In this document: piece after piece, positions 1-29,098 of the stretch | How positions within the stretch are numbered: the stretch's first letter is position 1 | How the letters are laid out: every line of letters begins with the position of its first letter | Notes under the pieces: generated by a model | The model's input: only the letters and a program-made list of their open reading frames with translations | Databases searched by the model: none | Told to the model about the DNA's origin: nothing | Source: Clostridia bacterium | GTDB taxonomy: Bacteria; Bacillota; Clostridia; UBA1212; UBA1255 | DNA length: 51,959 nt | Direction of reading: 5' to 3' | Assembly (NCBI GenBank): GCA_017935905.1 | Contig: JAGBGO010000044.1 | Span: forward strand, 1 to 51,959 | Translations under genes and position numbers: made by a program

Positions 1-8
1 AAGGCATA

Positions 9-40
9 ATATCACTCTGTGCGCAGCACAGAATATCACT
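9..40. repeat. Mini-hairpin flanked by ATATCACT direct repeats
   Basis: ATATCACT occurs at 9-16 and 33-40 on either side of a compact hairpin (CTGTGC pairing with GCACAG, 17-31). Similar pieces recur at 369-428 and near 1487, inside the small-gene cassette region. This looks like a modular interspersed repeat rather than a terminator, because no T-run follows. Confidence 0.6.
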
Positions 41-46
41 AATCCC

Positions 47-75
47 TTGCCCCTCCGCCGCCTTTATGCTACAAT
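47..75 (+). promoter_or_regulatory. Promoter of cassette gene 1
   Basis: TTGCCC (47-52), a 17-base spacer and TACAAT (70-75) precede the RBS AAGGAG at 81. The -10 region is extended (TATGCTACAAT). It belongs to a block also found at 441-479 and 1101-1139, where spacing and sequence up to the start codon are conserved. Confidence 0.75.
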
Positions 76-97
76 ACACAAAGGAGTTGATTTTGCT

Positions 98-292
98 ATG
101 AAATGTCCTTATTGTCAAAATGAAATGGAAGAAGGGTATATTCCTTTTAATTCACCTTTCATCTTAAAATGGGTTTCATTAGTTGATAAGAGAAAAGTGC
201 GAATTTCAGATAAAACAAAATGGTCTGAAGTAGCAAAAATTAAAAACATAAATTATTGCAAAGATTGTAATGTGTTTATTAAGAAAATCTAA
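98..292 (+). CDS. Small zinc-ribbon protein (DUF6487-like)
   Basis: A 64-residue protein starting MKCPYCQNEMEEGY. It has one CxxC pair at residues 3-6 and a second near the C-terminus (CKDC), the arrangement of a single zinc ribbon. Small two-CxxC proteins of this kind, resembling DUF6487, are common in Firmicutes but have no defined function. I chose the ATG at 98 because it sits 11 bases after AAGGAG; an upstream in-frame TTG lies inside the promoter. The gene has its own promoter and terminator, so it is a free-standing cassette. Base composition is AT-rich compared with the window beyond 3 kb, which suggests acquisition. The family assignment is from memory and the function is unknown. 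Confidence 0.75.
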   Translation: MKCPYCQNEMEEGYIPFNSPFILKWVSLVDKRKVRISDKTKWSEVAKIKNINYCKDCNVFIKKI

Positions 293-302
293 GGTTTTTA
301 GA

Positions 303-326
303 CCAGTTCCATTTTGAGTGTCGGCC
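303..326. repeat. Cassette-end motif, copy 1
   Basis: CCAGTTC followed by a T-run and a G/C-rich GTGTCGG lies just after the stop of gene 1. A close relative (CCAGTTC, T-run, GGACACG) lies at 993-1011, just after the stop of gene 2. The shared position downstream of unrelated genes suggests a cassette boundary or a shared 3' element. Confidence 0.45.
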
Positions 327-330
327 CCAA

Positions 331-364
331 AAAATCCTGAAAGCAGTTGCTTTCAGGATTTTTT
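331..364 (+). terminator. Rho-independent terminator of cassette gene 1
   Basis: AATCCTGAAAGC pairs perfectly with GCTTTCAGGATT around a 4-6 base loop, followed by TTTTTT. The stem is extended by flanking A/T pairs. Confidence 0.9.
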
Positions 365-368
365 CATT

Positions 369-428
369 TGTGCCGCAAGGCACAATATCGTTCCGCTTGT
401 GGACACAAAACGATGTGATGCTTCGCAT
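369..428. repeat. Cluster of mini-hairpins before cassette gene 2
   Basis: TGTGCC-GCAA-GGCACA (369-384) is a six-pair stem with a GNRA-type tetraloop. It is followed by ATATCG and a second tiny palindrome, ATGCTTCGCAT (418-428). These resemble the unit at 9-40 and fill the space between the terminator of gene 1 and the promoter of gene 2. Confidence 0.5.
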
Positions 429-456
429 TGATTTGTTACCGCTTTTATGCGATAAT
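428..456 (+). promoter_or_regulatory. Promoter of cassette gene 2
   Basis: TTGATT (428-433), 17 bases, GATAAT (451-456), then ATACACCCAAGGCGGTG and the ATG at 477. It matches the promoters at 47-75 and 1089-1116 through the shared TTTATGC..ATAATACAC block. Confidence 0.75.
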
Positions 457-476
457 ACACCCAAGGCGGTGATAAG

Positions 477-971
477 ATGTCTTTACAAACGATAGAAATT
501 AATTCTGTTAAAATTGCTTTTGATAAAAAGAAAACAAAAGAACATCGCACAGCTGTGAATAATCCTTGTGATTGTCAAAATTGCAGAAATTATTATAAGC
601 ACATAGAGAAAAATAAGGAGCTTGTCGAGTTCTTAATAGGTTTTGGCATTGATTATAATTGTACAGAAGAGGTTTTTTCTTGGGATTTAGGAAACGATGA
701 AGATTCGTTAATTCATCACGAAGGTTATTATGGTGTTTTCGGTAAAATCGAAGGCGAAGAATTTGATTTTGAAAAGATTGGTGTAAAAATCACTTTTCAA
801 AAAGGTGCTTCCGTTCCTTGCGATAGGACAGGAGATTATTTTTGGATATGCATTGAGGGAGATTTCCCTTATATACTTGATGAAGAAAGAGATTTGCCTA
901 TCACTTTTTCTCAAAGGGTGCAAAAGTCAAATATAATTAGTAAAATTAAGGCTGTATTTAGAAAAAAATAA
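477..971 (+). CDS. Conserved hypothetical cassette protein
   Basis: A 164-residue soluble protein. The start ATG follows AAGGCGGTGATAAG. Residues 30-40 contain CDCQNCRNYY, a Cys-rich stretch followed by a charged helix. The C-terminus is basic (KIKAVFRKK). There is no signal peptide or membrane segment. I recognise it only as a type of hypothetical protein recurring in Clostridia beside similar promoter-bearing cassettes and cannot assign a function. The AT-rich composition and the repeats on both sides support acquisition as a unit. A role such as an immunity or stress protein would be speculation. Confidence 0.75.
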   Translation: MSLQTIEINSVKIAFDKKKTKEHRTAVNNPCDCQNCRNYYKHIEKNKELVEFLIGFGIDYNCTEEVFSWDLGNDEDSLIHHEGYYGVFGKIEGEEFDFEKIGVKITFQKGASVPCDRTGDYFWICIEGDFPYILDEERDLPITFSQRVQKSNIISKIKAVFRKK

Positions 972-1088
972 AGAAATTTCTCGGTTTCTCGCCCAGTTCT
1001 TTTTCGGACACGATTTTTACTTATTACCTTTTTACTAAAAAATGCAAACGGGATTTTTGGAAGGTAATGGGGAACGGTGACGAAGTAG

Positions 1089-1116
1089 TTCGGTTTTGTG
1101 GCTTTTATGCTATAAT
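1089..1116 (+). promoter_or_regulatory. Promoter of cassette gene 3
   Basis: An extended -10 (TATGCTATAAT, TATAAT at 1111-1116) with a weak -35 (TTCGGT, 1089-1094). The segment 1101-1139 is nearly identical to the two other cassette promoter/RBS blocks. Confidence 0.7.
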
Positions 1117-1136
1117 ACACTTAAGGTGGTAAAGAT

Positions 1137-1580
1137 ATGGAATTGTTCCTGGAAATAGTATTTGAAGTTTATGTAGCGCTGATGATGTATATTGTTCCCG
1201 AAGAAAAGGCATCCTCAAAAAAGTATAGAACAATTGCAATTCTTGTTGCCGCGGTGATTTTGGTGGGCGTTTTAGCCTTGTTTATTTGGGGCTGTGTTTT
1301 AATAAGTGATTATGATAATAAATTAGGTATAATCCCAATTGTTATTTCAATTGTTATTTCAATTATCCAAATCATTGCAGGATTTATTTTACACGTAAAA
1401 AATAAAGAAAATCTAACGGTTTTCATCCGGCTCTGTTTTGCACGCGAATTTTCAGTTATATTCGCCTTGCGAGTTTTTGGAGGCGAATATAATATCACTG
1501 ATTTTAAAGCGGTTTCCAACCAAACTGCGATTTTTCTTGTTTTTACTCACCTGGAATATAAAAACGCTCCATTTACATAA
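1137..1580 (+). CDS. Small membrane protein with anomalous C-terminal extension
   Basis: A 147-residue product. Residues 1-20 are hydrophobic, residues about 30-55 and 63-87 form two confident membrane helices, and a short charged KNKEN stretch follows. Related Clostridia proteins, as I recall them, end near this point. The remaining 50 or so residues look unlike a designed domain. The DNA encoding them contains a palindrome (ATATTCGCC..GGCGAATAT) and ATATCACT, the cassette repeat. I infer that the ancestral stop was lost or the gene was fused to repeat DNA. The start ATG follows AAGGTGGTAAAG. Function unknown. Confidence 0.65.
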   Translation: MELFLEIVFEVYVALMMYIVPEEKASSKKYRTIAILVAAVILVGVLALFIWGCVLISDYDNKLGIIPIVISIVISIIQIIAGFILHVKNKENLTVFIRLCFAREFSVIFALRVFGGEYNITDFKAVSNQTAIFLVFTHLEYKNAPFT

Positions 1581-1601
1581 ATAATATTAATGACTTATAA
1601 T
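1572..1601 (+). promoter_or_regulatory. Promoter of XRE regulator
   Basis: TTTACA (1572-1577), 18 bases, TATAAT (1596-1601), ahead of the RBS AAAGGAGG at about 1613. It overlaps the end of the preceding gene. Confidence 0.6.
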
Positions 1602-1629
1602 TATTTTGTAAAAAAGGAGGTAGCATATT

Positions 1630-2499
1630 ATGAGTATAGGTAGTCAAATTGCGTTATATAGAAGATCGCTCAATATGACACAGGAAGAATTGGGGCGACT
1701 TGTTGGGGTTAGTAATCAAGCAGTTTCTAAATGGGAATCAGAGATTTCTATGCCTGACATCATGTTACTTCCTCGTATTGCAAGTGTTCTTGAAATAACA
1801 TTGGATGATTTGTTCGCTGAACAGACTGACAAACACTTACAAACCGAATCACATGTGTTTAATATGAATGCCGTTCGGAGTTTCCCAAAAGATGCACAGA
1901 CTATGATTAATGATACTATGTGCCGTCAAACTAATTTAATTAATTGTAGTTCATGGGAAATTTTGAAGGTGGATAAGAATGCTTTGACCAAAAAAATTGA
2001 CCACGTAAAGAAAAACACTACTTTGTGCTGTTTATCTGATACGGTAGGTTCTGCATTTGTTTCTGATAATCTTACAGTGATTGACTCTAGTATGGCGCCG
2101 GTGGATATCGCTTTGTTGTTTGAGCGAAATGAAATAGCGCACGGAATTAAGAAGTTATTGGATACAAATGTAAGAAAAGTACTTTCCTATATCTGCAAGG
2201 AATATTTTCACAATTCTGCATCATTTGATTGCTCAAGCTCGGAGTATTTTGTAGCAGTTATTAGACCAAAAGAGATATTACGTGAAATTGGACTCACAGA
2301 TGATGAGCTGATGGAAGCTTTGGATAAGCTGATATCTCTGCACATTGTTGAATTGCAAACAAATAAAGATTCGCATTATGTTCTTCATAAGGTAAAGGCA
2401 ATCGAGGCAGCCGTAACGTTTAAGGTGATTGAACGGTTTATTAACAATGAAGTTGGCATTGGGTGCGGCGAATTTTTGACATTAGGACAGTTCGACTAG
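1630..2499 (+). CDS. XRE-family transcriptional regulator with C-terminal sensor-like region
   Basis: A 289-residue protein. Residues 4-60 form a classic HTH_3 domain: QIALYRRSLNMTQEELG, then NQAVSKWESEISMPD in the recognition-helix region, then ITLDDLF. Residues 70-289 match nothing I recognise; the last 120 residues are predicted helical and include DDELMEALDKLISL, reminiscent of a second winged helix. The start ATG follows AAAGGAGGTAGCATATT, a strong RBS. The gene stands alone with its own promoter, next to AT-rich cassettes. It probably binds DNA as a dimer; target genes are unknown, and the TPR protein downstream is a possible partner. Confidence 0.85.
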   Translation: MSIGSQIALYRRSLNMTQEELGRLVGVSNQAVSKWESEISMPDIMLLPRIASVLEITLDDLFAEQTDKHLQTESHVFNMNAVRSFPKDAQTMINDTMCRQTNLINCSSWEILKVDKNALTKKIDHVKKNTTLCCLSDTVGSAFVSDNLTVIDSSMAPVDIALLFERNEIAHGIKKLLDTNVRKVLSYICKEYFHNSASFDCSSSEYFVAVIRPKEILREIGLTDDELMEALDKLISLHIVELQTNKDSHYVLHKVKAIEAAVTFKVIERFINNEVGIGCGEFLTLGQFD

Positions 2500-2790
2500 T
2501 TTTATTGAATTTTGTATCCATGTTTTTGAAGAAACATAGGTACAACACAATTGAATCATATTTTCTGTGATATTCACCTTTCTCATCTGGCTTGCGGGAT
2601 GATATCATGCCCAAAACACGTTTTTTGAAATTTGTTATGATGGTTCTGGTAAAATAGTAGTGCTAAATCGAATAAAACAGGTGAATGGCATGAAAATCGT
2701 ATATTGTGCGAGGAAAATGTCATGCCATTTTACAAGTTTTTGAGGAAATGGTATGATAACCACTATAAACTGCAACAAGGTGGTGGGGAA
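2500..2790. other. Intergenic region with hairpin leader
   Basis: A possible promoter is TTGAAA (2625-2630) with TAAAAT (2650-2655), but the 19-base spacer is long. A 10-pair inverted repeat (AATGGCATGA at 2684-2693, TCATGCCATT at 2720-2729) lies in the probable leader of the TPR gene. It is not followed by a full T-run, so it may be an operator or RNA structure rather than a terminator. Confidence 0.45.
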
Positions 2791-28821: not shown

Positions 28822-29098
28822 GTTAAATGCGTTTGAGCAGGAACCAGTAAGTTTCAAACGGAACCTGGAGAGAGTTGCCGGTCGGTGCGAGGCAATGGGT
28901 AAGGGAAACTGTATTCATCCTGTGAGATGTGTACTGAACGAGGTGACTCAAGTAGGATACAACGGGTGTTCCCGTCATAGAACAAGCGTGTTGATAGACA
29001 CGCACAAGGCTGTTTTCGTGAGAAGACAGCGAATAGAGGTGGTACCACGGGAATTCTCGTCCTCTGTATTCCAAGCAAGAATACAGAGGACTTTTTTG
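28822..29098 (+). ncRNA. T-box leader (compatible with tRNA-Phe)
   Basis: Stem I contains AGAGAG (28869-28874) and the distal GCCGGTCGGTGCGAGGC. The T-box is GAGGTGGTACCACGGG (29036-29051), whose TGGT would pair with an ACCA acceptor end, i.e. discriminator A. The terminator follows: GTCCTCTGTATTC pairing with GAATACAGAGGAC, then TTTTTT (29059-29098). A TTC at 28914-28916 (TATTCATCC context) sits where a specifier is plausible and is shared in position with the leader at 33.5-33.8 kb, suggesting Phe. Phe is inferred; CGA after TGAA at 28939 is a competing reading. Confidence 0.9.

Follow-up and report, generated by a model that had tools for sequence, protein, structure and literature searches.

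Promoter-bearing single-gene cassettes, probably mobile, behind tRNA genes of uncultured gut Clostridia

Introduction

Genes of bacteria gather behind tRNA genes in several described ways. Additive flexible genomic islands, such as the tRNA-Lys fGI-2 of Methylophilaceae, lie at a tRNA gene, contain repeated copies of about the last 20 nt of the tRNA and carry variable, mostly unknown genes (PMC10872708). Genomic islands of the Islander type, and their satellites, lie directly behind an intact tRNA, with tRNA-like sequence at the far end (PMC4383910), and tycheposons are cargo elements of 4-200 kb with a tyrosine recombinase, also seated at tRNA genes (PMC10872708). Integron gene cassettes and CALINs are tandem single-ORF units, mostly promoterless and of unknown cargo, with a recombination site (attC, with R''/R' boxes RYYYAAC...GTTRRRY and a long imperfect fold) right after the stop codon. 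Gut-1 (Rfam RF01706) was listed as a free-standing ncRNA candidate from human gut only (PMC2864571), and in the literature that we searched for tRNA-anchored single-gene cassettes and for follow-up of Gut-1, only this 2010 paper names RF01706.

Here we analyzed a stretch of 51,959 nt (the window) of a Clostridia bacterium (assembly GCA_017935905.1, contig JAGBGO010000044.1, positions 1 to 51,959; genome G000 below). An earlier note, made from the sequence alone, had claimed that three unrelated small genes in positions 1-1600 share an almost identical segment before the start codon, a CCAGTTC motif after the stop and mini-hairpins, that each has its own transcription signals, and that this resembles gene cassettes or a hitch-hiking repeat system mobilising single ORFs, with no integrase visible.

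Results

The shared promoter block

The observation in the earlier note proved correct. The 17-nt block TTTATGCNAYAATACAC occurs exactly at 63, 444 and 1104 (+), and with up to 3 mismatches there are 7 hits in the window against 0.99 expected, a number reached in 0 of 100 shuffles. In the whole 1.88 Mb genome the exact pattern occurs only at these three places and the reversed control 0 times, while a 22-nt version with up to 2 mismatches adds two more sites, both in a second array behind tRNA-Leu on contig C20 of the same genome. The block is a sigma-70-type extended -10 promoter (TTGnnn, 17 nt, TATGnTANAAT) followed at once by the RBS. Only blocks 2 and 3 match well over the full 39 nt (79%), whereas block 1 agrees over the promoter but not in the RBS spacing, and the third copy has a poor -35.

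We considered whether these are ordinary accessory genes with a lineage-typical promoter and terminator, the block marking a regulon. The block is indeed a normal promoter and tRNA flanks are ordinary hotspots for accessory genes, but the exact block is absent elsewhere in the genome, and leaders exceed 90% identity across taxa while same-genus flanks are 77-82% identical. A supposed operator dyad in the promoter (CCRC/GYGG) was not supported (11 of 25 paired against 8.0 when shuffled, reached in 128 of 2000). This explanation is very unlikely and already largely refuted by the genome-wide distribution.

Anatomy of the cassettes

By comparing the surroundings of the three ORFs with those of homologues of the second (gene 2), we found a common plan: a terminator hairpin with A and T tracts, a mini-hairpin array, the TTGnnn-17-TATAAT block, one ORF and then, beginning at the stop codon, a tail of about 48 nt made of a small hairpin (GAAAATC..GGTTTTC) and ACC(A/G)GTTC plus 20 nt, after which the next terminator follows.

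In the window (all features +), the contig start cuts the first leader, of which the 3' end remains at 1-45, with mini-hairpins at 5-40 separated by ATATCACT. Block 1 (47-97; TTGCCC-17-TACAAT, extended -10, AAAGGAG) precedes ORF 1 (98-292, 64 aa), a DUF6487 zinc-ribbon-like protein (Pfam PF20097, E 7.1e-11), and tail 1 (283-329, type I), which consists of the hairpin AAATCTAAGGTTT and then ACCAGTTCCATTTTGAGTGTCGGCCCCA, with CCAGTTC at 303. Cassette 2 opens with a perfect 17-bp terminator hairpin with A/T tracts (329-364), followed by leader 2 (365-440; mini-hairpins GTGCCGCAAGGCAC and GATGCTTCGCATTG), block 2 (428-476; TTGATT-17-GATAAT, AAGGCGGTGAT), ORF 2 or gene 2 (477-971, 164 aa, CDCQxCRNYY family, function unknown) and tail 2 (973-1017, type II), which has CCAGTTC at about 993 and its 3' end merged into leader 3. 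Leader 3 (1016-1100) is a decayed inverted AT-rich array of the TTACTTATTACC... / ...GGTAATGGG type, and the same type lies behind tRNA-Arg in a relative (G028) and behind tRNA-Gln in G000. Block 3 (1088-1136; TATAAT at 1111-1116, AAGGTGGT) precedes ORF 3 (1137-1580), a membrane protein. ORF 3 reads into tail 3 (1405-1450, decayed), and its native stop was probably lost by a 1-nt change in the A-run at about 1396-1402, as suggested by frame analysis and by a similar ORF in MAG G413 that stops at the tail. A remnant of a further leader (TTATATTCGCCT/AGGCGAATATAA arms, ATATCACT) lies at about 1456-1500 and has the same motif as the leader behind tRNA-Cys in MAG G406. A wide search with a tail model (R1), which used strict filters and is a lower bound, hit tails 1, 2 and 3 with E 7.9e-10, 4.9e-8 and 5.3e-8. 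Farther along the window there is a T-box leader at 28823-29067 (+) (RF00230, 110.6 bits).

The three ORFs are unrelated, and ORFs 2 and 3 match no family. The cargo of the cassettes is small and mostly unknown (DUF6487, gene 2, membrane proteins, DUF5412, YcxB-like, DUF4275, a glycine-transporter-domain protein and peptidyl-tRNA hydrolase 2). A PADLOC search gave no hit for ORFs 1-3, which does not support a defence-system reading, and the AlphaFold model of gene 2 was unusable (pLDDT 35).

Tails that resemble tRNA 3' ends

Tail variants are type I (CATTTTGAGTGTCGGTCCCA after GTTC), type II (TTTTTCGGACACGAATGACA), type II' (TTTTTTGGTCAGTAGTACCA) and type III. From GTTC to the final CA, types I and II (and II' in locus L008) are 24 nt long, the length from G53 to A76 of a tRNA. 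When scored with 129 real tRNA 3' ends, intact tails of type I (three tails) and type II' were tRNA-like (shuffle p 0.0001 or below), decayed type I copies had p 0.009-0.03, and type II tails were only weakly tRNA-like (p 0.001-0.005). Tail 1 is the best tRNA-3'-end-like 28-mer in window positions 1-2700 (score 6.0, next -6.3, shuffle p 0.0001). However, the tail usually does not match the adjacent tRNA, unlike in normal tRNA islands: types I and II are independent of the tRNA, and only in MAG locus L004 does the tail end in the same 12 nt, GTGTCGCCTCCAGAAAAAAC, as the upstream tRNA-Cys.

These tails raise the possibility of an integron-like capture system, in which tail and/or folded Gut-1 hairpins are single-strand recombination sites of a dedicated but distant recombinase. 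The single-ORF units, the stop codon abutting the site, the tandem arrays, the mostly unknown small ORFs and the extensive hairpins fit this view. On the other hand, the tails GTTCCATT / GTTCTTTT have no GTTRRRY box and only two short hairpins instead of the long attC fold, no integron integrase or attI was seen (within the window there was no convincing hit to the recombinases found beside arrays), each cassette has its own promoter-like block, and the Rfam hit for the leader is Gut-1 and not a recombination site. We regard this explanation as unlikely.

Position behind tRNA genes

The same architecture with other ORFs lies directly behind tRNA 3' ends. In G000, tRNA-Leu(taa) is followed by two cassettes and tRNA-Gln(ctg) by a related unit, and in G028 tRNA-Arg(ccg) is followed by four cassettes with four unrelated ORFs. 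Cassettes start directly after the CCA of tRNA-Leu (G000), Arg and Leu (G028), Cys (G406, G410), Thr(ggt) (G412, G413, G407), Thr(cgt) (G412) and Pro (G413), and loci in rumen/colon Clostridia MAGs also show the plan behind tRNA 3'-end repeats.

The leaders in the C20 array of G000 and in relatives are inverted pairs of Gut-1. The G000 element on C20 (39030-39108) scores 71.4 bits against an Rfam gathering score of 50, and many MAG loci also reach this threshold, whereas the window's own leaders, cut or divergent, do not reach it. When 106 Gut-1 elements were compared with 150 tRNAs in five MAGs, 15 elements started 34-45 nt behind a tRNA (0.1 expected), and 36 of 38 elements with two or more copies were head-to-head pairs. 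Most elements (91 of 106) are not within 60 nt of a tRNA, though 56 of the 106 have no upstream tRNA on their contig. Over six genomes, for which stretches around listed tRNA genes and arrays were compared, 24 of 99 tRNA 3' flanks carried the inverted array against 0 of 57 control windows 1.5 kb further; the five MAGs used for the statistics were chosen because they carry gene 2, and the 24 of 99 is not a rate for Clostridia at large.

Two other kinds of element were present behind tRNAs. Short units of about 110-330 bp without an ORF, sometimes in tandem, end in near or exact copies of the same tRNA's 3' end, often plus the terminator (L224, L228, L229, L230, L232 in G406; L209, L212 in G412; L071 1-560 at the G000 tRNA-Asn). 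ORF-less Gut-1-like elements behind tRNAs or tRNA-3'-like ends (L146, L147, L156, L160, L162, L210, L221) close with GCAAGAGTTCGAATTCATACGC or similar, another T-loop-like end.

The tRNA upstream of the window is not seen in the draft genome and is inferred. The leader at 1-45 is 91.3% identical to the end of the leader behind tRNA-Cys in G406 and 93.5% to that behind tRNA-Thr in G412. The tRNA list of G000 lacks Phe, Gly(gcc) and Cys, its contig C83 ends just after tRNA-Val-Asp, and in G410 and G406 the cluster that ends in Gly-Cys is followed by gene 2. We therefore presume that tRNA-Cys most likely lies about 200 bp before position 1. For an upstream link by synteny, homologues of the PHP gene downstream of the array were compared and were mostly 24-46% identical.

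Turnover and shuffling

Conserved synteny of the three genes, which would have spoken against cassettes, was not observed. Gene 2 was found in only 4 of 58 genomes searched (G000, one relative at 75% and two distant ones at 32-35%) and, at 71-88% identity, in nine MAGs of another collection with differing leaders, tails and neighbours. G001, of the same genus, keeps the tRNA-Leu and its flanks at 77-82% identity without the two cassettes, and homology breaks within about 5 nt of the tRNA end; G001 has 591 bp of other DNA there, so this is not a clean empty site. The trmK/tRNA-Arg site of G028 was uninformative because relatives have no tRNA within 1.5 kb of trmK. tRNA-Thr(ggt) carries gene 2 in G412 and G413 and other ORFs in G407 and G406.

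Leaders 90-94% identical precede unrelated ORFs in different genomes (G413 gene 2 and G000 MKNNQD, 92.3% over 220 nt; G028 c1 and G412 MTKEEF, 90.4%; G412 gene 2 and G407 MKKKRI, 92.5%), and gene 2 stands behind about six leader types and with four tail types. The type I tail core is 27/27 identical in G000, G004 and G081 (another family, f22). Hybrid tails (type I hairpin with type II end in L131, II' in L073) suggest crossover near GTTC.

Such shuffling could also arise without a site-specific enzyme, if tRNA 3' flanks were neutral landing zones and the repeated leaders and tails let ORFs be swapped by ordinary homologous recombination (promoter block on one side, tail on the other), with Gut-1 pairs as separate MITE-like repeats. 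Leader and ORF are unlinked (one leader type has three or more ORFs), the hybrid tails fit crossovers in short homology, and Gut-1 elements are numerous (up to 51 matches per genome) and many are not at tRNAs. This view does not explain the exact left boundary at the tRNA CCA, the 34-45 nt spacing, nor the transfer between taxa whose genomes share little else. We consider it doubtful, although homologous recombination may add to the shuffling.

Recombinases and viral contigs

The cassettes encode single non-recombinase ORFs, and the window gave no convincing hit to the recombinases found beside two of the arrays. In L007 (1530-5290), three large serine recombinase genes (CcrA/B/C-like) end in a type I tail directly upstream of a gene-2 cassette, and in L005 (3523-5690), a stretch between tRNA-Arg(cct) and a tRNA-like 3' end has a tyrosine recombinase fragment and is followed by the gene-2 cassette. 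Each of these lies next to only one array. Exact-pattern scans of IMG/VR with tail I, tail II and the promoter block returned 0 matches each, which does not support a viral origin.

Discussion

We presume that the region is the far end of an array of non-autonomous, promoter-bearing single-gene cassettes behind a tRNA gene, probably tRNA-Cys, just beyond the contig start, and we give this reading a probability of roughly 0.55. The analysis itself establishes the architecture, its precise position after the CCA of different tRNAs, different ORFs at the same junction, near-identical leaders before unrelated ORFs in different genomes and the same ORF with different leaders and tails. We infer from these that the cassettes insert by site-specific recombination at the tRNA 3' end or at an existing tail, which would act as a secondary att site so that arrays grow in tandem, that the recombinase (most likely a tRNA-targeting tyrosine integrase of a resident element) acts in trans, and that each cassette is expressed from its own promoter wherever it lands. 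Horizontal movement is very likely, but the evidence does not identify the enzyme: no recombinase is tied to the cassettes, no circular form and no clean empty site were found among these draft genomes, in which many arrays end at contig ends, and simple tail-to-tail recombination does not explain why leader and ORF are unlinked. The interpretation in the earlier note was thus partly supported: cassettes or a system mobilising single ORFs, with no integrase visible, is close to what the data show, but the note did not see that the insertion site is, as we infer, the tRNA 3' end, that CCAGTTC is part of a tRNA-3'-end-like tail and that the mini-hairpins are of the inverted Gut-1 pair kind.

Additive islands with repeated tRNA ends are the nearest described pattern, but here the units are single ORFs with a conserved leader, promoter and tail, the tail is a generic tRNA-like sequence and not the neighbouring tRNA's own end, and inverted Gut-1 arrays are part of the unit. 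Compared with Islander-type islands, the cassettes also lie directly behind an intact tRNA (for the window itself this is inferred), but they have no integrase gene, measure about 0.4-1.2 kb, and their far-end copy usually does not match the occupied tRNA. They have neither the size nor the recombinase of tycheposons. They share tandem single-ORF units with integron cassettes but lack attC boxes, carry promoters and are anchored at tRNAs. A more speculative possibility, which we consider unlikely although it would be of great interest, is a dedicated gene-capture system of uncultured gut Clostridia, working like an integron but anchored at tRNA 3' ends, in which inverted Gut-1 hairpin arrays and tRNA-mimicking tails are the recombination sites and every captured ORF receives a ready-made promoter.

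The packages described here look like an undescribed way of swapping single genes. It would be a route for single genes to move between uncultured gut Clostridia with their own promoter, without a self-encoded integrase and outside the integron framework. The cassette signature (block, tail, Gut-1 pair) makes the cargo pool searchable. Further, it gives Gut-1, a candidate RNA without a function since 2010, a concrete genomic setting in rumen/colon Clostridia: one arm of an inverted DNA element, often seated at tRNA 3' ends.
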